Made by a program: the position numbers and the translations under genes. From assembly GCF_026343945.1 (NCBI RefSeq), contig NZ_JAPKNJ010000002.1:434001-498000 (forward strand): a DNA stretch of 64,000 bases, written 5' to 3'. Numbering within the stretch: the first letter of the stretch is position 1; the number at the start of each line of letters is the position of its first letter. The DNA is from Kaistia algarum (GTDB taxonomy: Bacteria > Pseudomonadota > Alphaproteobacteria > Rhizobiales > Kaistiaceae). Positions 1-8,073 of this stretch are shown here, piece by piece. The notes beneath the pieces are model-generated. The model worked only from the letters and a program-made list of their open reading frames with translations. It ran no database searches and was not told the DNA's origin.

Positions 1-783
1 ATGGGTTTGAAGGACTGGTTCGGGCTGGAAGGAAAGCGCGCCCTCGTCACCGGCGCCAGCCGTGGCCTCGGCCGTGAGATGGCGCTGGCGCTGGCGGGTG
101 CCGGCGCGGACATCATCATCACGGGCCGTACGCAGGATACGCTCGACGCCACCGTCGCCGAGATCGAGGCGCTCGGCCGCAAGGCCTGGGGCATCAAGGC
201 TGACATGGCGGAGGCCAAGGCCTGCGAAACCGCCTGCGAGATGATCCTGAGCGAGTTCGGCGCGGTCGACATCCTGATCAACAATGTCGGCAACCGCATC
301 GCCTCCATGCCGATCCAGGAGGAGACGCTCGAGACCTGGCAGCAATCGCTCGACATGAACCTGACGAGCTGCTTCCTCGGCACCAAGGTCTTTGGCGCCG
401 CTATGCTGGAGCGTGGCGAGGGTGGCCGCATCATCAACATTGCCTCGATGAGCGGCCTGATCGCCAATCGCGGCATTGGCGGGCGCGACTACGAGACCGG
501 CAAGGCGGCGGTGATCCATTTCACGCGCTGCGCCGCTGCCGACTGGGCTCCGCATGGCATCACGGTCAACGCGATTTGCCCTGGCCTGTTCATGACCGAT
601 ACCAACCGGGGCTGGAACGAGCGCAGGCCCGACGTCATCGACGCGATCGTCGCCCATATTCCGCTCGGCCGCCCCGGCAACCCGCCTGAGATCGGCCCCC
701 TCGCCGTCTATCTCGCCAGCCCATCGGCGAGCTATGTCACCGGCGCCGCCTATGTGATCGATGGCGGCTACACGCTCTGGTGA
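1..783 (+). CDS. SDR family NAD(P)-dependent oxidoreductase
   Basis: A 260-residue classical short-chain dehydrogenase/reductase. The cofactor motif TGASRGLG is at residues 17-24, NNVG at 94-97 replaces the usual NNAG, a Ser is near 149-151, and the catalytic Tyr164 and Lys168 form YxxxK. The length is normal for classical SDRs. The exact substrate is not readable from sequence; N-terminal similarity in style to gluconate 5-dehydrogenase or 3-oxoacyl-ACP reductase types, together with the downstream aldose 1-epimerase 24 bp away, favours a sugar or polyol substrate (inference). The ATG is the first base of the window, so upstream operon partners and the true start cannot be checked. Confidence 0.88.
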   Translation: MGLKDWFGLEGKRALVTGASRGLGREMALALAGAGADIIITGRTQDTLDATVAEIEALGRKAWGIKADMAEAKACETACEMILSEFGAVDILINNVGNRIASMPIQEETLETWQQSLDMNLTSCFLGTKVFGAAMLERGEGGRIINIASMSGLIANRGIGGRDYETGKAAVIHFTRCAAADWAPHGITVNAICPGLFMTDTNRGWNERRPDVIDAIVAHIPLGRPGNPPEIGPLAVYLASPSASYVTGAAYVIDGGYTLW

Positions 784-807
784 GCGTCCGTCGCGCAGGA
801 AGTCAGC

Positions 808-1827
808 ATGTCCATCCATGAATTTGCCCGCCTGCCCGATGGCACGGCGATATCCGAGATTCGTCTCGCCAACGCCGCCGGTGCAACCGCCTCGGTGCTG
901 ACTTTCGGCGCAGCGCTGCGCGACCTCGTCGTTCCCATGCCGGATGGCAGCCGCCGGCGTGTCGTTCTCGGCTTCGACAGCCTGGACGCCTATCAGGACA
1001 ATCCCCGTTTTCTCGGTGTCACCGTCGGCCGGCACGCAAGCCGCATCGATGGCGGCCGGATCGTTCTGGACGGTGAGACCTATCAGCTCGCGCTGAACGC
1101 AGCTGGAGTGCATCTGCACGGCGGACCCACTGGCTTTTCTCGGCGGCCCTGGACGATTCTCGATCATGGTTCGGATTTCGTGACGCTTGGCCTCGTCTCG
1201 CCCGATGGCGAGGACGGTTATCCTGGGCGTCTCGACGTCAAGCTGACCTATCGGCTGAAGGAGCCGGCGACCTTTGCGGTCTCGATCGAGGCGACGACGG
1301 ATGCGCCGACGATCGTCTCGATGGCGCATCATTCCTATTGGACGCTGCTGCCCGGCTCATCGATCCGCGACCACTTCCTGCAATTCCACGCCGCGAACTT
1401 CACGCCCTTCGGCGCCGACATGAATCCAGCCGGTACGATCGAGCCCGTGGAAGGAACGCCGTGGGACTTCCGCGACTCCCGGCGGATCGGCGATCCGCGT
1501 TTCGGCGAAGATTTCGCCTATGATTGCAGCTTCGTCATCGACCGCACGGCTCCCGGCGTCGTTCCGGCCGCGCGACTGGAGGCGCCCGACCGCAGCCTCG
1601 CCATGGATGTCGTGACCTCGGAGCCCTGCATTATATTCTATGACGGGGCCGGACTTACACCCGACTGGCCGGACATCGATGGCAGCCGACACTACCCGCA
1701 TGCGGGCCTATGCCTGGAGCCGATGCGCTTTCCCGACAATCCCAACCAGCCGAACTTCCCATCTGCACGCCTCGACCCAGGCGAAACCTATCGACAGGAA
1801 AGCGAGTATCGTTTCTCGGCATTTTGA
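808..1827 (+). CDS. Aldose 1-epimerase family protein
   Basis: A 339-residue GalM-type mutarotase, expected to interconvert alpha and beta anomers of aldoses in the cytoplasm. Visible family hallmarks are HLHGG in the first third, HHSYW at residues 174-178 (the catalytic His region) and the C-terminal LEPMRFPDNPNQPNF block carrying the catalytic Glu304. Length is normal. It follows the SDR gene by 24 bp on the same strand, suggesting a two-gene sugar-processing operon. Galactose specificity cannot be claimed, since several sugar-specific mutarotases share these motifs. Confidence 0.9.
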   Translation: MSIHEFARLPDGTAISEIRLANAAGATASVLTFGAALRDLVVPMPDGSRRRVVLGFDSLDAYQDNPRFLGVTVGRHASRIDGGRIVLDGETYQLALNAAGVHLHGGPTGFSRRPWTILDHGSDFVTLGLVSPDGEDGYPGRLDVKLTYRLKEPATFAVSIEATTDAPTIVSMAHHSYWTLLPGSSIRDHFLQFHAANFTPFGADMNPAGTIEPVEGTPWDFRDSRRIGDPRFGEDFAYDCSFVIDRTAPGVVPAARLEAPDRSLAMDVVTSEPCIIFYDGAGLTPDWPDIDGSRHYPHAGLCLEPMRFPDNPNQPNFPSARLDPGETYRQESEYRFSAF

Positions 1828-1889
1828 GGCATGCAGTGCTTGCGACGACGCGATTGCCGATGCGGTGATTTTCCGTTATCGCTTATTCT

Positions 1890-2144
1890 ATGAATGCTGA
1901 TGTGCCAGACCGCAAATCGAGGGGCCGTCCGCCGCTTCACGCTACTCTTGTAGGCGTGCGCATGGCGCCGGATCTTCTTGGTGCGCTGGACCGTTTCGCC
2001 GCGGAAGGCGGACGGTCACTGTCTCGGCCGGAGGCGCTGAGAATCGCGTTTCGCGAATTCGCGCTGGCGCGGGGCTATATCCGTCCGGCTTCGTCGGACG
2101 AAGGCACGAGGCCGTATGATTTGACTTCGGACAATGACGGCTGA
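1890..2144 (+). CDS. Small ribbon-helix-helix-like DNA-binding protein
   Basis: An 84-residue protein. Residues about 20-60 read as a ribbon-helix-helix domain: a short beta strand (VGVRMAPDLLGALDRFA) followed by a helix-turn-helix-like segment ending in SLSRPEALRIAFREF. This matches CopG/MetJ-type regulators or antitoxins. No toxin-like ORF adjoins it, so an orphan transcriptional regulator is the simpler reading. Start ATG at 1890 gives a short basic tail (RKSRGRPP) before the domain. It lies directly upstream of the small lipoprotein genes and could regulate them, but that is inference. Confidence 0.6.
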   Translation: MNADVPDRKSRGRPPLHATLVGVRMAPDLLGALDRFAAEGGRSLSRPEALRIAFREFALARGYIRPASSDEGTRPYDLTSDNDG

Positions 2145-2186
2145 CGCCGCTAGGTCCATGGGTGGAAGTGGCTGAGGAGAAATGAA

Positions 2187-2366
2187 ATGCGGATCCTGTT
2201 TCTGTCGCTTGCTGTGATTTCCGGGATGGTTGGCCTGTCGGGTTGCCAGTCCGGCTCCAACCCGAATTCGCCGGCCATGCAGGCCATGGACAACCCGCCG
2301 AATTCGTGCGGCTCGGGCGGTTCGCAGAACATCGAAGACTGCAATAATGGCGGCGGCCGGCGCTAA
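2187..2366 (+). CDS. Tiny lipoprotein, paralogue 1 of 4
   Basis: A 59-residue predicted lipoprotein. MRILFLSLAVISGMVGLSGC is a complete signal peptide with lipobox LSGC; the lipidated Cys is residue 20. The mature part is only about 40 residues and carries the block PNSPAMQAMDN followed by PPNSCGSGGS and a second downstream Cys (EDC). The start at 2187 is chosen because AGGAG at 2175-2179 lies 7 bases upstream; an ATG 5 bases earlier is in another frame and stops quickly. Three paralogues follow within 1.3 kb. No known function is recognised. Confidence 0.8.
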   Translation: MRILFLSLAVISGMVGLSGCQSGSNPNSPAMQAMDNPPNSCGSGGSQNIEDCNNGGGRR

Positions 2367-2396
2367 TCGCCGATCGCAATTGACCGGAAATTGACG

Positions 2397-2567
2397 ATGC
2401 GTACCGTGATGCTCTCTGTGGCGTTGGCGGCGGGCCTGTTTGGCTTTGCCGGCTGCCAAGGCTCCAGCAATCCGAATTCGCCTGCGTTGCAGGCGATGGA
2501 CAATCCGCCGAATGCCTGCGGACCGGGCGGTTCGTCGAATAGCGAAGATTGCGATAGAGGTCGCTGA
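2397..2567 (+). CDS. Tiny lipoprotein, paralogue 2 of 4
   Basis: A 56-residue predicted lipoprotein starting MRTVMLSVALAAGLFGFAGC, lipobox FAGC, lipidated Cys at residue 20 exactly as in paralogue 1. The mature domain has PNSPALQAMDNPPNACGPGG and ends SNSEDCDRGR, keeping both non-lipid Cys residues (41 and 52). It starts 30 bp after the stop of paralogue 1 and ends 26 bp before the ATG of paralogue 3, so the genes probably form one transcript. The ribosome binding site is weak. Function unknown. Confidence 0.8.
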   Translation: MRTVMLSVALAAGLFGFAGCQGSSNPNSPALQAMDNPPNACGPGGSSNSEDCDRGR

Positions 2568-2593
2568 TCGTGGTTGCTGGGGGCGGGGCGACG

Positions 2594-2812
2594 ATGAGGA
2601 AGACAACGCTGGCGCTCGTCATATTGACGGGCGTCTTCGGAATGTACGGCTGCCAGGGCTCGAGCGACCCGAATTCGCCGGCGCTTAGGGCGATGCAGAA
2701 TTCGCCGAATTCCTGTGGGCCCGGTGGAACGGCAAACGTGAACGATTGCGGTGCCATGAGGTCGAGCGGCGGCATCAGCATGGGAGGTCCGAATGGAATT
2801 TCGCACTATTGA
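2594..2812 (+). CDS. Tiny lipoprotein, paralogue 3 of 4
   Basis: A 72-residue predicted lipoprotein from the internal ATG at 2594 (a GTG at 2570 would add eight residues before the signal peptide and is disfavoured). Signal MRKTTLALVILTGVFGMYGC ends in an MYGC lipobox with Cys at residue 20. The block PNSPALRAMQNSPNSCGPGG and the second Cys (NDC) are conserved, but a glycine/serine-rich tail of about 16 residues (from AMRSSGG onward) is unique to this copy. Its last 20 bases overlap the next gene, whose Shine-Dalgarno sits inside this ORF. Confidence 0.78.
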   Translation: MRKTTLALVILTGVFGMYGCQGSSDPNSPALRAMQNSPNSCGPGGTANVNDCGAMRSSGGISMGGPNGISHY

Positions 2813-3167
2813 TGCGGTCACGAAACGGATGATTATTTCTGTCGTGACGCTGGCCGCAGCGATGTCGGGAGCCTCCGCTCAGCGCGCCGACGTGACCCCG
2901 GTCAACCCGGCTCAGTTCAAGAAATTGAGCTGCGAGCAGATCGCGTTTCGCATCCGGCAATTGAACGTGCCGATCGGCAATGACAGCTCGACACTCGCGG
3001 GGTTGCAGCGGGCCCAGAACCCGGTGTTGTTCTTCTTCACCGGCTTCGGCTCCCGCAACGACGATTATAACGCGTCGCTTGCCCATGCCCGCGGCGAGCG
3101 CAATGCGCTGATCGCGGTGGCAGTCGAGAAGGACTGCGCCTCGAAGCTGCTCGTGCCCCAGCGCTGA
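2793..3167 (+). CDS. Secreted hypothetical protein
   Basis: A 124-residue protein of unknown function. ATG 2793 is preceded by GGAGG at 2783-2787 with a 5-base spacer, a strong site that decides the start although it overlaps paralogue 3 by 20 bp. The N-terminus has a basic n-region (TKR), a hydrophobic stretch (MIISVVTLAAAMSG) and a plausible cleavage after ASA, so it is likely periplasmic. The mature part has LSCEQIAFRIRQL and a second Cys near the C-terminus (EKDCASKL) that could pair with it. It sits between lipoprotein paralogues 3 and 4, probably in the same transcript. Confidence 0.65.
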   Translation: MEFRTIDAVTKRMIISVVTLAAAMSGASAQRADVTPVNPAQFKKLSCEQIAFRIRQLNVPIGNDSSTLAGLQRAQNPVLFFFTGFGSRNDDYNASLAHARGERNALIAVAVEKDCASKLLVPQR

Positions 3168-3351
3168 GGCGCCAAGGCACACGAAGTCGCATTGAAGTCG
3201 GCCGACAGCGCCCCATTTCGTCCGGAGATGCCGGCCCTATCCTGGATGCCGGCGCTCAGCCGGTTCTCCGGGGCGATCCGCGCCATACGGGCCACGCTAG
3301 TCGTTGGCCGGCGCTTCTTGCCCGGCGCGCCGACAGCAAGGATCGACGAAA

Positions 3352-3522
3352 ATGCGCACTACAGTTCTGTGTCTCGCGCTGGCTGGCAGCCTGATGGGGC
3401 TCGCCGGCTGCCAATCCAACTATGACCCGAACTCGCCCGCCATGCAGGCCATGAACAACCCGCCGAACGCCTGTGGACCCGGCGGAACCGCCGCCAGAGA
3501 GCAGTGCAGCAGCAATCGCTGA
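3352..3522 (+). CDS. Tiny lipoprotein, paralogue 4 of 4
   Basis: A 56-residue predicted lipoprotein from ATG 3352 (AAGGA 9 bases upstream). Signal MRTTVLCLALAGSLMGLAGC has a canonical LAGC lipobox, Cys at residue 20. The mature part contains PNSPAMQAMNNPPNACGPGG and ends AREQCSSNR, conserving both additional Cys residues. It is separated from paralogue 3 by the secreted hypothetical gene and 184 bp of apparently non-coding sequence, so it may have its own promoter. Function unknown; the position-for-position conservation with the other copies supports it as a real gene. Confidence 0.8.
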   Translation: MRTTVLCLALAGSLMGLAGCQSNYDPNSPAMQAMNNPPNACGPGGTAAREQCSSNR

Positions 3523-3666
3523 GCGCCGGGGCGAACGCGGCAGGACAGGGACGGCGAGCTGGTTCCAACGATTGGCTCGCCGATGCACCCGAGTTTATGC
3601 GGTCGGATTAACCGGAACGTCGAGATTCTGGCGTTAGGCTGATGCCCTTCGTCGAAGGAACGCGTC

Positions 3667-4695
3667 ATGCCGCCGGCCGGTAAATCACCTCGTATCGACT
3701 GGGTCGACTACGCCAAGGGCTTCTGCATCATCATGGTCGTGATGATGCATTCGACGCTCGGTGTCGAGAAAGCCGCAGGCGCTGAAGGCTGGATGCATTA
3801 TCTCGTCGCCTTCGCCAAGCCGTTCCGTATGCCGGATTTCTTCATGATCTCCGGGCTGTTCCTTGCCCATGTCATCGACCGCGACTGGAAGACCTATGCC
3901 GACCGCAAGGTCGTGCATTTCGCCTATTTCTACATCCTCTGGCTCGTCATCCAATTCGCCTTCAAAGCCCCCGGCATGATCGGTGATGTGGGCACGGTGG
4001 AGACCGTGCGCCAGTTCGCGCTCGCCTTCGTCGATCCCTTCGGCACGCTCTGGTTCATCTATCTGCTGCCAGTCTTCTTCGTAACCGTGAAGTGGCTGCG
4101 CCGCGTTCCCTGGCCCCTCGTCTGGATTGTCGCGGCGGCGCTCGAAATCGCCAATATCGAAACCGGCTGGGTGCTGCCGGACGAGTTTGCGGCGCGCTTC
4201 GTCTATTTCTATTCAGGCTACGTCTTTGCGCCTTCCATCTTCCGCCTCGCCGCAGCCGTCATCGCAAGGCCGTGGCCGGCAGCGCTGGGTCTGGCCTTCT
4301 GGGCAGTTGTCGAGGGCGTAGCCGTCTTCGGCGGCTATTCCGAGCTTCCCTTCATCAGCCTGGGGCTCGGCATGGTCGGCGCCGTGGCCGTGGTCACGAT
4401 CTCGGCGCTCCTTTCCAAGGCCGGCGCGATGGCGCCCTTGCGCTACTGCGGCCAGAACTCGATCGTCATCTATCTCGCCTTCTTCCTGCCGATGGCCGTG
4501 ATGCGGACTCTGCTGCTCAAGACCGGCGTCATTCCGGACCTGGGCTGGGTGTCGCTGATCGTCACGGCTTTTGGTGTCATAGTACCGATCCTGTTGTTCT
4601 GGGTGGTGCGGGGCACGCCGCTCAAATTCCTGTTCGAGCGGCCAGCCTGGGCAAGGCTCGACAACCGATCGCCGCATCTTGCCGCCGCCGAATAG
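3667..4695 (+). CDS. Acyltransferase family 3 integral membrane protein
   Basis: A 342-residue polytopic inner-membrane protein of the acyltransferase_3 (OafA/OpgC-like) family. The N-terminal signature RIDWVDYAKGFCIIMVVMMH carries the conserved D and the membrane-embedded His expected to take part in acyl transfer; FFMISGLFL follows near residue 60. About ten hydrophobic segments are visible. Such proteins O-acylate exported glycans or other extracytoplasmic substrates; which one is unknown here. It stands alone: 144 bp of non-coding sequence upstream, photolyase 45 bp downstream. Confidence 0.85.
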   Translation: MPPAGKSPRIDWVDYAKGFCIIMVVMMHSTLGVEKAAGAEGWMHYLVAFAKPFRMPDFFMISGLFLAHVIDRDWKTYADRKVVHFAYFYILWLVIQFAFKAPGMIGDVGTVETVRQFALAFVDPFGTLWFIYLLPVFFVTVKWLRRVPWPLVWIVAAALEIANIETGWVLPDEFAARFVYFYSGYVFAPSIFRLAAAVIARPWPAALGLAFWAVVEGVAVFGGYSELPFISLGLGMVGAVAVVTISALLSKAGAMAPLRYCGQNSIVIYLAFFLPMAVMRTLLLKTGVIPDLGWVSLIVTAFGVIVPILLFWVVRGTPLKFLFERPAWARLDNRSPHLAAAE

Positions 4696-4740
4696 CGGGG
4701 AGCCATTGCCGAAACGACATCGCAGCGCTAGCTCCGCATC

Positions 4741-6168
4741 ATGACCGACCATCCGCCCACCAGCCTCGTCTGGTTCCGCGAGGATCTCCGCCTCTCCGAC
4801 AACCCGGCCCTTACCGCTGCCATCGATCGTGGCGGCAGGCTGGCCATGGTCTATATCCTCGACGAGGCGAGCGACGGGATCCGACCGTTCGGCGGCGCGT
4901 CGCGCTGGTGGCTGCATCACTCGCTGGCCGCGCTCGCCACCGATCTCGAAGGCCAGGGCCATCGGCTGATCCTGCGCCGTGGGCCGGCACGCGACATTGT
5001 CCCATCCGTGTTGCGCGAGACGCAGGCCGACGCGGTGTTCTGGAACCGCCGCTATGGCGCAGCCGAGCGACAGATTGATGCCGAGATGAAGGCGTCTTTC
5101 AAGGCGGACGGCATTGTCGCCGAGAGCCGCCAGGCCGGCCTGCTTTTCGAGCCATTGATGCTGAAGACCGGCGCCGGTCAGCCCTACCGCGTCTTCACCC
5201 CGTTCTGGCGCGCCTGCCTCGCATCGCCGGAGCCACGCCTGCCCCTCCCCGCACCGTCGATATGGCCCGAGCCAGCTCCGGCGATCGCCTCGGACCGGCT
5301 TGACGATTGGGGTCTGTTGCCGAAAAGGCCCGATTGGGCGGCAGGCTTTCGGGACCTATGGGAGCCGGGCGAAGCGGGCGGCCAACGCCGGCTTGAAGCG
5401 TTCATCGACGAGGGCCTGCCCCACTACGCCGACAAGCGCGACCGGCCGGACCGTGACGTGACGTCCCGCCTGTCGCCGCATCTGCGCTTTGGCGAGGTCA
5501 GCCCATTCCAGCTCTGGCATGCCGCCAATGGCGCGGCCGAGCACGACGGCATCGCCCGTCGCAACGTCGACAAATTCCTCGCCGAACTCGGCTGGCGCGA
5601 ATTCTCCTGGCATCTGCTCTTCCACAATCCCGATCTGGCAAGCCGCAATTTCCAGCCGCGCTTCGATGCTTTTCCCTGGGCCGAGCCCGACGCGGCAACG
5701 CTTGACGCGTGGCAGAACGGGCGGACGGGAATCCCGATTGTCGATGCCGGCATGCGGCAGCTCTGGCGCACCGGCACGATGCACAATCGGGTGCGCATGA
5801 TCGTCGCTTCGTTCCTGATCAAGAACCTGCTGATCGACTGGCGGGTCGGAGAGGCGTGGTTCTGGGATACGCTGGTCGATGCCGACCCGGCCAGCAACGC
5901 GGCGAGCTGGCAATGGGTCGCCGGCTCCGGCGCCGACGCGGCGCCCTATTTCCGCATCTTCAATCCGCTGCTACAGGCGGAAAAGTTTGATCCGGCTGGA
6001 GATTATGTCCGCGCGCATGTCGAGGAACTCGCCGCGCTGCCAGCAGCAAGGATCCTGAAGCTTGCGCCGGCAGGCCGCCCGGCCGGCTACCCGGCGCCGA
6101 TCATAGACTTAGGAGCGAGTCGTCAGCGGGCCTTGGATGCCTTCGCCAGCATCCGCGACAGCGACTGA
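4741..6168 (+). CDS. phrB: Deoxyribodipyrimidine photo-lyase (class I CPD photolyase)
   Basis: A 475-residue flavoprotein that repairs UV-induced cyclobutane pyrimidine dimers with blue light. The N-terminal alpha/beta photolyase domain starts SLVWFREDLRLSDNPAL, typical of antenna-binding domains. The C-terminal FAD domain contains ELGWREFSWHLL, GIPIVDAGMRQLWRTGTMHN and the FAD/DNA-binding stretch SWQWVAGSGADAAPYFRIFN. Length is normal for class I CPD enzymes (about 470). A cryptochrome-like role is possible in principle, but the motif set is that of a photolyase. Confidence 0.93.
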   Translation: MTDHPPTSLVWFREDLRLSDNPALTAAIDRGGRLAMVYILDEASDGIRPFGGASRWWLHHSLAALATDLEGQGHRLILRRGPARDIVPSVLRETQADAVFWNRRYGAAERQIDAEMKASFKADGIVAESRQAGLLFEPLMLKTGAGQPYRVFTPFWRACLASPEPRLPLPAPSIWPEPAPAIASDRLDDWGLLPKRPDWAAGFRDLWEPGEAGGQRRLEAFIDEGLPHYADKRDRPDRDVTSRLSPHLRFGEVSPFQLWHAANGAAEHDGIARRNVDKFLAELGWREFSWHLLFHNPDLASRNFQPRFDAFPWAEPDAATLDAWQNGRTGIPIVDAGMRQLWRTGTMHNRVRMIVASFLIKNLLIDWRVGEAWFWDTLVDADPASNAASWQWVAGSGADAAPYFRIFNPLLQAEKFDPAGDYVRAHVEELAALPAARILKLAPAGRPAGYPAPIIDLGASRQRALDAFASIRDSD

Positions 6169-6320
6169 ATCAAAATTCTCCGTCGGCACCGTCCTTAGAA
6201 AACGGTTTCGGTATCGGCGCGCAATCCCGTTCGCGAATGCGTTGCCGAGCCAATCGGCATAGAGCAGTTTGCTCGCTGCGCTTCCTTTCACCTCCTGGAA
6301 CCTTCAGGCGTCGCTCATCC

Positions 6321-7352
6321 ATGGCCATTCTTCCCTCCGTCCTCGACGCCATCGGCAACACGCCGCTGATCCGCCTGCGCCGCGCTTCCGAGCGCACCGG
6401 GTGCGAGATTCTCGGCAAGGCGGAGTTCATGAACCCTGGCCAGTCGGTCAAGGACCGCGCGGCGCTGTTCATCGTCCGCGATGCGATCGCCCGCGGTGCA
6501 CTGCGTCCCGGCGGCACCATCGTCGAGGGCACGGCGGGCAATACCGGCATCGGTCTCGCCCTCGTCGGCAGCGCGCTGGGCTTCCGCACCGTGATCGTCA
6601 TTCCCGACACGCAGTCGCAGGAGAAAAAGGACGCGCTACGCGTCGGCGGCGCCAGCCTCGTCGAGGTGCCGGCCGTGCCGTACCGCGACCCCAATAATTA
6701 CGTGAAGCTTTCGGGCCGCCTCGCGGAGCAGCTGGCCGCAACCGAGCCGAACGGTGCGATCTGGGCCAACCAGTTCGATAACGTCGCGAACCGGCAGGCG
6801 CATATCGAGACCACCGGCCCGGAGATCTGGGCGCAAACGGCTGGGCGTATCGACGGCTTCGTCGCCGCAGTCGGCTCGGGCGGCACGCTCGCCGGAGTCG
6901 GCATCGCGCTGAAGGAACGCAACAAGGACATCGCGATCGCCATCGCCGATCCTTTCGGCGCAGCGCTTTACAGCTATTACACCACCGGCGAGTTCAAGGC
7001 CGAAGGTTCGTCGATCACGGAAGGCATCGGCCAGGGCCGCATCACCGCCAATCTCGAAGGCGCGCCGATCGACGCCGCCTTCCAGATCTCCGATAGCGAG
7101 GCCCTCGACATCGTCTTCGATCTTGCCGAGCATGAGGGGCTGGTCCTCGGTGGCTCGTCGGGCATTAACATTGCCGGAGCCATTCGCCTCGCCGAAAAGC
7201 TCGGCCCCGGCCATACGATCGTGACGATCCTTTGCGACGGCGGCTCGCGCTATCAATCGAAGCTTTTCAATCCGTCGTTCCTGCGCGAGAAAGGACTTCC
7301 CGTTCCATCGTGGATGGAGCGGCAGGCCGACATCCCGATACCCTACGAGTAG
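6321..7352 (+). CDS. cysK: Cysteine synthase A (O-acetylserine sulfhydrylase)
   Basis: A 343-residue PLP-dependent enzyme of the cysteine synthase/cystathionine beta-synthase fold, making L-cysteine from O-acetylserine and sulfide. GNTPLIRL is at residues 13-20; NPGQSVKDRAA carries the PLP-binding Lys near residue 43; GTAGNTGIGLA binds the phosphate/substrate; VGSGGTLAGV follows near residue 180. The start at 6321 gives the usual N-terminus (MAILPSVLDAIGNTP); an upstream ATG at 6237 adds 28 basic, unrelated residues. Downstream alaX starts 4 bp after the stop, then a sulfurtransferase, so the run is sulfur-related. Confidence 0.93.
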   Translation: MAILPSVLDAIGNTPLIRLRRASERTGCEILGKAEFMNPGQSVKDRAALFIVRDAIARGALRPGGTIVEGTAGNTGIGLALVGSALGFRTVIVIPDTQSQEKKDALRVGGASLVEVPAVPYRDPNNYVKLSGRLAEQLAATEPNGAIWANQFDNVANRQAHIETTGPEIWAQTAGRIDGFVAAVGSGGTLAGVGIALKERNKDIAIAIADPFGAALYSYYTTGEFKAEGSSITEGIGQGRITANLEGAPIDAAFQISDSEALDIVFDLAEHEGLVLGGSSGINIAGAIRLAEKLGPGHTIVTILCDGGSRYQSKLFNPSFLREKGLPVPSWMERQADIPIPYE

Positions 7353-7356
7353 CCCC

Positions 7357-8073
7357 ATGACCCAGACCACCCTCCTCTTCCGCGACGATCCCTATCTGTC
7401 GACGGCCGAGGCGAGGGTGACGGGGGTGACCGAGACGGGCGGAATCGAGCTCGATCGAACCATCTTCTACGCGGCCGGCGGCGGCCAGCCGGGCGACACC
7501 GGTGCGCTGGAGCGCGCCGACGGGACGATGATCCCGATATCGACGACGATCTATGGTGCCGACAAGTCGCAGATCGTCCATGTGCCGGCTGATGGCGCGG
7601 CGATTCCCGAGATCGGCGAGACCCTGATCGCCCATCTCGACTGGCCGGTCCGCCACCGGCATATGCGCATCCATACCGGCCTGCATCTTCTCACCGTCGC
7701 CGTGCCGTTTCCGGTCACGGGCGGGCGGATCGGCGCCGAGGAAGGGCATCTCGATTTCGATATCGACGGCGCCGTCCCGGCGAAGGACGAGATCGAGGCG
7801 AAGCTGGCCGCGATGATCGCTGCCGACCATGCCGTCACGACGGAATGGATCACCGATGATGAGCTCATCGCCAATCCCGGCCTCGTCAAGACGATGAGCG
7901 TCAAGCCGCCGATGGGCTCGGGCCACGTCCGCCTCGTTCGGATCGGCGATGTCGATTTGCAGCCCTGCGGCGGTACGCATGTGCAATCGACCGCCGAGAT
8001 CGGCGGGCTGGTCGTTGCCAAGATCGAGAACAAGGGCAAGCAGAATCGCCGCATCCGCATCCGCTTCGCCTGA
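7357..8073 (+). CDS. Alanyl-tRNA editing protein AlaX-like
   Basis: A 238-residue free-standing trans-editing domain that hydrolyses mischarged tRNA (typically Ser-tRNA(Ala)). The zinc-binding residues of the family are intact: H106 and H110 in HTGLHLL, and C204 and H208 in CGGTH. The N-terminal half has the AlaRS second-additional-domain glycine motif (GGGQPGDTG). Length matches medium AlaX-M proteins. It starts 4 bp after cysK and is followed 25 bp later by the sulfurtransferase, so the three are likely co-transcribed; cysteine/serine/alanine metabolism is a loose common theme. Confidence 0.92.
   Translation: MTQTTLLFRDDPYLSTAEARVTGVTETGGIELDRTIFYAAGGGQPGDTGALERADGTMIPISTTIYGADKSQIVHVPADGAAIPEIGETLIAHLDWPVRHRHMRIHTGLHLLTVAVPFPVTGGRIGAEEGHLDFDIDGAVPAKDEIEAKLAAMIAADHAVTTEWITDDELIANPGLVKTMSVKPPMGSGHVRLVRIGDVDLQPCGGTHVQSTAEIGGLVVAKIENKGKQNRRIRIRFA

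Follow-up and report, generated by a model that had tools for sequence, protein, structure and literature searches.

Tiny two-cysteine lipoproteins of Kaistia: an apparently genus-restricted multigene family with a candidate disulfide-closed loop

Four genes lying within 1.3 kb of the 64-kb stretch of Kaistia DNA analyzed here (the window) encode tiny lipoproteins of a real family without a name, apparently restricted to the genus and, in kind, a set of small lineage-specific lipoproteins. The source organism is a soil bacterium, and Kaistia is placed in the Kaistiaceae of the Hyphomicrobiales. We give about an even chance to the reading that each protein is a flexible tether, anchored in the outer membrane and with a disulfide-closed loop at its end, and that it serves as a lineage-specific accessory of the envelope. 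Genus-restricted tiny lipoproteins easily escape both annotation and homology-based assignment of function, and this family provides a clean and testable case, with 53 sequences, three invariant cysteines, purifying selection, and genomes of two to eight copies available for comparison. If real, the loop would count as a minimal natural case of a disulfide loop on a lipid anchor, and the family would illustrate the way in which a genus gains envelope proteins that wider families do not explain.

The four copies (w1 to w4) and the features around them are the following.

1854..1889, + strand: conserved block before the start of the ribbon-helix-helix gene, TTTTCYGYTAWC in seven of seven carriers (alignment), with TTG further upstream
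1890..2144, + strand: small ribbon-helix-helix protein (RHH_1-like) of 84 aa, its gene 42 bases upstream of w1
2187..2366, + strand: mini-lipoprotein w1, 59 aa, Cys20 in a lipobox-like site (LSGC), core NSCGSGGSQNIEDC
2397..2567, + strand: mini-lipoprotein w2, 56 aa from the ATG at 2397, core NACGPGGSSNSEDC
2594..2812, + strand: mini-lipoprotein w3, 72 aa from the ATG at 2594, core NSCGPGGTANVNDC
2829..3167, + strand: small secreted protein, 112 aa, two cysteines in the mature part
3352..3522, + strand: mini-lipoprotein w4, 56 aa from the ATG at 3352, core NACGPGGTAAREQC
3667..4695, + strand: acyltransferase-3 membrane protein (PF01757, E 2.6e-32), the same flank in 14 of 14 Kaistia genomes

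Several of these starts were chosen by us: the program that lists open reading frames begins upstream of the chosen ATG in w2 (TTG), w3 (GTG) and w4 (TTG), and begins the secreted protein at 2793 instead of 2829. The first-pass annotation had described four tiny lipoprotein genes in 1.3 kb with Cys20, a shared core and fixed cysteine spacing, and this description is confirmed. All four copies carry Cys at residue 20, the string PNSPAxxAM, the string PN-[SA]-C-G-[PS]-G-G, and a further Cys 11 residues beyond the first core Cys; the pattern N-x-C-G-x9-C matches four times in the six frames of the 64-kb window, every time within w1 to w4. The residue after the lipid Cys is Gln, and the mature part measures 37-53 residues. 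Identity to w1 is 63% for w2, 47% for w3 and 54% for w4, and the 20-residue tail that follows the last Cys of w3 is the longest among the 53 members. An unrelated gene, that of the secreted protein (2829-3167), separates w3 from w4 within the same 1.3 kb.

Across the 53 Kaistia members, this anatomy is maintained with little exception. As read from the sequences, the N-terminus of every member is hydrophobic and leads to a lipobox-like site that closes with [GAS]C, with odd residues at lipobox position -3 or -2 in a few (e.g., MYGC and LQGC), and the lipid Cys stands at residue 20 in 48 members, at 23 in three and at 19 in two. Exactly two cysteines follow it in 53 of 53, always 11 apart, a constancy that is both striking and readily testable. 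Counted from the first core Cys, Asn at -2 and Gly at +1 are present in all 53, Gly at +3 in 46 and at +4 in 48, [ST] at +5 in 45, [ND] at +7 in 51, and Ile at +8 in 36. The conserved element can be written N-x-C-G-x-G-G-[ST]-x-[ND]-I-x-x-C, in which N, C, G and C are invariant. The residue at +2 of the lipid Cys is Thr in 29 members, Ser in 13, Gln in six, Ala in three and Gly in two; Asp occurs there in none. The mature part spans 31-53 residues (mean 36.7) and is composed largely of Asn (13%), Gly (12%), Ala (11%), Ser (11%), Pro (9%) and Cys (8%), with very little Leu (0.4%), His (0.5%) or Trp (0.1%) and almost no aromatic residues. The last conserved Cys is the C-terminal residue in six members (L057, L061, L066, L077, L080 and L067), five of which form one group in the member tree (100/99), of the PNSRVYQTMNNQPNACGPGFKRDIDAC type, where GF replaces GG.

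The family is also under selection at the level of the protein, as the first-pass annotation had argued, with dN/dS values far below 1. Pooled over 17 orthologue pairs, picked by position and similarity, dN/dS is 0.106 for the mature part and 0.177 for the signal peptide, while single pairs vary; the first pair at a site that we call locus B (genomes G009/G012), for example, has a mature dN of 0.293 and dS of 0.974. Among w1 to w4 the pairwise ratio is 0.19-0.41 for the whole gene and 0.12-0.27 for the mature core. The accompanying remark that the copies differ mainly at third codon positions was somewhat overstated: whichever of the six pairs is taken, these positions account for 44-52% of its differences.

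Thirteen of 14 Kaistia genomes carry the family at E 0.01, with 53 genes in total and 8, 8, 6, 6, 4, 4, 4, 3, 2, 2, 2, 2 and 2 copies per carrier; the single genome with no match (G008) is an assembly of 720 contigs, 92% complete and 6% contaminated. A profile of the four window copies found seven loci in named records, belonging to Kaistia hirudinis, K. soli, K. dalseonensis and two records labeled Mesorhizobium and Bosea. The labels of the records in question, Mesorhizobium sp. BR1-1-16 and a Bosea sp. metagenome-assembled genome (L038, L040, L042), look wrong, and the genomes appear to be Kaistia. In the family sample, a 33-member profile gave weak matches at E 0.5 in nine of 14 genomes other than Kaistia (18 places), of which the best, at E 0.003, covers profile positions 1-25. 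For the order sample (397 genomes), the same profile gave matches at E 0.02 in 45, among which 11 are Kaistia and the other 34 contribute 35 places, the best of them at E 1e-4 over profile positions 1-28. Besides the window copies, a profile of the mature part recovered three short fragments in the class sample (289 genomes, E 0.01) and one in the phylum sample (299 genomes, E 0.003). Pooled, the outside places amount to 56 different ones, each of which was searched in six frames for N-x-C-G-x9-C. The full motif is present in one of the 56 (L210), in a reading frame without a signal peptide; the looser CGxGG-x6-C adds two more, of which one (L083, the same place as L114) lies antisense to a 200-residue open reading frame and the other (L127) has no signal peptide. 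The N-x-C-G-x9-C test on 28 Kaistia loci returned 49 motifs, equal to the number of members there. Plasmid and phage records (w2 as query, E 1) and viral contigs (20-member alignment as query) gave no match. The family was found in Kaistia only, among the genomes and collections sampled, where for the large samples some 16-26 candidates were scored per genome and the groups were themselves sampled, such that a very divergent relative could escape. The profile search across the Hyphomicrobiales that the first-pass annotation had proposed thus gives homologues in related Kaistia genomes but not in the sampled remainder of the order. Two of the outcomes that this annotation had named as refuting, a dN/dS near 1 and a lack of homologues in related genomes, did not occur. 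By co-occurrence, the restricted spread pointed to no partner, and a literature search found no description of it and nothing for CGPGG together with lipoprotein.

The absence of a recognized named family from the first-pass annotation likewise stands: neither Pfam and NCBIfam run on the four copies nor Pfam run on 33 members gave a convincing model. All NCBIfam matches of the four copies are far under cut-off, the best (E 0.0021) falling on the signal region of w2, and a class III lanthipeptide model matches residues 31-53 of w2, its core, at E 0.1 and 12.6 bits against a cut-off of 30. Eight Pfam families were matched by the 33 members at E 0.5 or better, with DUF6491 the best (E 0.014, three of 33), and some PHROGs of unknown function extend into the mature part at E 0.02-0.5. 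These weak profile matches are taken as chance on small, simple sequences. Searching PDB sequences found no relative among solved structures (best E 0.41, in the signal region), and an AlphaFold model of the lipoprotein comprises the signal helix and a short helix at 28-35 with low confidence (pLDDT 66.5, pTM 0.26). The low confidence would fit a flexible chain but also a poor model, and the model adds little. By its features, the family resembles entericidins, LptM and Rz1 spanins, yet by profile it belongs to none of them.

How might such a protein work? The four genes would give exported lipoproteins that lose a 19-residue signal peptide by cleavage at the lipobox, with Cys20 becoming lipidated. 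In Escherichia coli, a lipoprotein without Asp at +2 is directed to the outer membrane, a rule that may not hold strictly in alphaproteobacteria. With Gln at +2 in the window copies and Asp at this position in no member of the family, the E. coli rule would place these proteins in the outer membrane. What is left after cleavage would be a flexible tether of 37-53 residues, rich in Asn, Gly, Ala, Ser and Pro. In the oxidizing periplasm, Cys41 and Cys52 may then close a 12-residue disulfide loop on the lipid anchor; two exported cysteines at a fixed spacing around a Gly-rich turn fit such an internal disulfide, though both thiols could instead be free. It is this loop that would do the work, as a small element for binding or as an adaptor in the Kaistia envelope, and a cell would hold several variants of it, encoded in the chromosome by a multigene family that gains and loses members.

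Free thiols are the starting point of an alternative that we consider unlikely, namely that the Cys pair stays reduced and, together with Asn/Asp, binds copper or zinc or takes part in periplasmic thiol exchange, the copies serving to raise capacity. The invariance of the pair in 53 of 53 members and its Asn/Asp-rich surroundings would suit such a ligand, as would the histidine kinase gene adjoining one single copy (L069), whose many model matches, all of them under cut-off, include sensors of zinc and of heavy metals. However, the cysteines are 11 apart and form no CxxC, His makes up only 0.5% of the mature part, and the named neighbors of the copies include no metal uptake or efflux gene.

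We think it quite improbable that these are entericidin-like, membrane-active or antagonistic lipopeptides, acting on the cell's own or on neighboring membranes, with copies divided between effector and protector. The resemblance lies in size, in the lipid anchor and in the tandem arrangement: entericidin A/B precursors are also of about 50 aa, with a lipobox and a very short mature part, and their genes are likewise in tandem, as in the E. coli ecnAB operon; in Kaistia, two adjacent copies are present at 10 of 11 locus-B sites. There is also a precedent in Agrobacterium, where a small lipoprotein annotated as entericidin (Atu8019; 53 aa, mature part 32 aa) rides outer-membrane vesicles, and its deletion slightly lowers vesicle attachment (PMC7296081). 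Yet no lytic activity was seen for that Agrobacterium protein (PMC7296081), the entericidin model is absent from the Pfam matches of the 33 members, and the Kaistia family, unlike entericidins, has two invariant mature cysteines and the N-x-C-G-x-G-G loop. Furthermore, the mature part shows no long amphipathic helix in its (poor) model, and the low dN/dS is not the diversifying pattern expected of antagonists.

Very unlikely, in our estimation, is a role as an assembly cofactor of an outer-membrane machine in the manner of LptM, where a client would be the target of the Cys pair. The precedent is LptM (YifL), a tiny lipoprotein that aids native disulfide formation in LptD and whose mature part is of similar size. 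It measures about 6 kDa, is conserved in Enterobacteriaceae and promotes the oxidative maturation of LptD (PMC10567701). Against this, PF13627 is absent from the Pfam matches of the 33 members, and NF047847 matches only one of the four window copies, over residues 1-20 and at 10.6 bits against a cut-off of 27.7. A multicopy family limited to one genus, at two to eight copies, differs from LptM and would be odd for a core machine. Finally, derivation from a prophage or other mobile element, as a remnant of an Rz1-like outer spanin lipoprotein, is largely refuted and scarcely credible: Rz1 is also a tiny lipoprotein precursor, eight of 20 members match phrog_3198 (Rz-like spanin; best E 0.0054) and one of 33 matches a T7-like outer spanin Pfam model (E 0.033), but these sub-threshold likenesses lie over the signal region; when five members were checked singly, the four that matched phrog_3198 (E 0.07-0.37) did so between residues 1 and 38, a stretch made up chiefly of signal peptide and lipobox, and phage and plasmid records (w2), viral contigs (A3 alignment) and the named neighbors, which are chromosomal, yielded neither a match nor an inner spanin or phage context.

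Turning from the loop-bearing tether that we favor to its genes, the spacing at the window site (locus A) is suggestive of shared expression. The RHH gene, w1, w2, w3 and the secreted-protein gene are separated by 42, 30, 26 and 16 bases, and w4 follows 184 bases further on. Judged by this spacing, RHH-w1-w2-w3 is a probable single unit with the RHH gene first; w4, 184 bases beyond the secreted gene, therefore probably has its own promoter. The block at 1854..1889 lies with its TTTTCYGYTAWC very near the RHH start codon, which suggests a promoter whose transcript has a short leader or none, and the block may be described as promoter- or operator-like. Against this, the block is missing from the promoters called by a sigma-70 scan, which lists positions 1862-1882 within it as a weak terminator-like hairpin; the pattern scan was uninformative in general, with one promoter-like hit against 0.5 expected and three terminator-like hits against 1.5 expected. 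Rfam gave no convincing match on window positions 1-8000. The RHH protein itself matches Pfam RHH_1 at E 0.0015 and 18.8 bits, under the cut-off of 20.5. What follows this RHH_1-like gene are exported lipoproteins, with no recognized toxin after it, and PADLOC gave no match for the four lipoproteins or the RHH protein at E 0.1.

The first-pass annotation had seen in this clustering with a secreted protein and a ribbon-helix-helix regulator the hint of a small envelope module, a reading that is weak. The secreted gene has a strong match in all 14 Kaistia genomes, where it occurs together with the acyltransferase gene and with photolyase-like and cysteine-synthase-like genes (the latter two named from reading the sequences by eye, not from a family search). 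It is directly upstream of the acyltransferase gene in nine genomes and has lipoproteins intervening in five, so that the arrangement exists with or without them. Its product has no Pfam or NCBIfam match at E 1, its predicted structure is mostly helical at low confidence, and it probably lies outside the function of the family. The RHH gene and one to four lipoproteins surround the secreted gene in seven of 14 genomes, and both are missing from the other seven. In a tree built on three flanking genes, carriers and non-carriers are split by one fully supported branch, which amounts to one event and is weak evidence of a functional link between RHH protein and lipoproteins. Moreover, the RHH match of one carrier, K. 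dalseonensis (G002; L058 7529-7762, - strand), crosses an in-frame TAG, with the adjoining lipoprotein frame intact, and 32 of the 53 copies are at other loci. In G311, a genome from another genus of the same family, the RHH protein has a relative (E 4e-18, 53% identity) whose surrounding 12 kb contain no lipoprotein of this kind.

By site, 21 copies are at locus A, 21 at locus B and 11 elsewhere. Locus B holds one or two copies (two adjacent ones being the usual state noted above) beside an Xre/RES toxin-antitoxin pair, or replacing that pair, and is flanked either by a phasin gene and a D-Ala-D-Ala carboxypeptidase gene or by the genes of a pentapeptide-repeat protein and of two large proteins related to each other. 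In one Kaistia clade, these related proteins beside the locus-B lipoproteins measure 382 and 694 aa (L072 6493-7638 and 7676-9757); they have no Pfam match at E 0.01 and are secreted by our reading of the sequence. Taken as a whole, the named neighbors of the copies are chromosomal genes that point to no single pathway. One K. hirudinis copy upstream of an MdoG gene (PF04349) raised a link to periplasmic glucans, which was rejected on finding a lipoprotein within the fetched flanks at one of 20 MdoG-family loci in 14 genomes.

Positional orthologues group across species in the member tree, as with the locus-A copies of G005/G011 and G009/G012 and likewise with those of locus B, from which it follows that several copies predate those species splits. 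For the window copies, w1 is joined to one of the K. hirudinis copies, located in L055 (99/94), w2 and w3 fall together (99/75), and w4 goes with a single K. hirudinis copy situated elsewhere in the genome (96/91), its partner being on a long branch; the tree is built on few columns, and 13 of its 50 inner branches are open. By this grouping, w4 belongs to a lineage separate from w1-w3 and is not a recent local duplicate. Local duplication, which had been proposed for all four copies, fits w1-w3 and is ruled out as the only origin by w4.

Kaistia also has a second family of mini-lipoproteins, nearest in kind to the main one, with homology between the two not established. Its members are 44-45 aa long and consist of a lipobox-like site (AGC, AAC or VGC) that holds Cys17, two mature cysteines and little else; they are shorter than those of the main family, with a different core (SCNQASSTVGGPVIC, SCQSIGTGGTADVIC) and with the mature cysteines 13 apart in eight of eight sequences read, as opposed to 11. 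As a speculation that we hold to be rather improbable, Kaistia might show up to eight variant disulfide-looped mini-lipoproteins per genome on its envelope or vesicles as a lineage-specific display for recognition or docking, made from nearly the smallest lipid-anchored loop conceivable, beside which the second two-cysteine family would stand, perhaps independently built. The second family was seen in G000, G003 (two), G004, G005, G007, G009 and G011 (at loci including L115, L119-L123 and L191), and an example from the window's own genome (G000:C2 near 777760, L189) reads MRIAIVLLVSLLGLAGCQSVYQQGSSDSCNQASSTVGGPVICPN.
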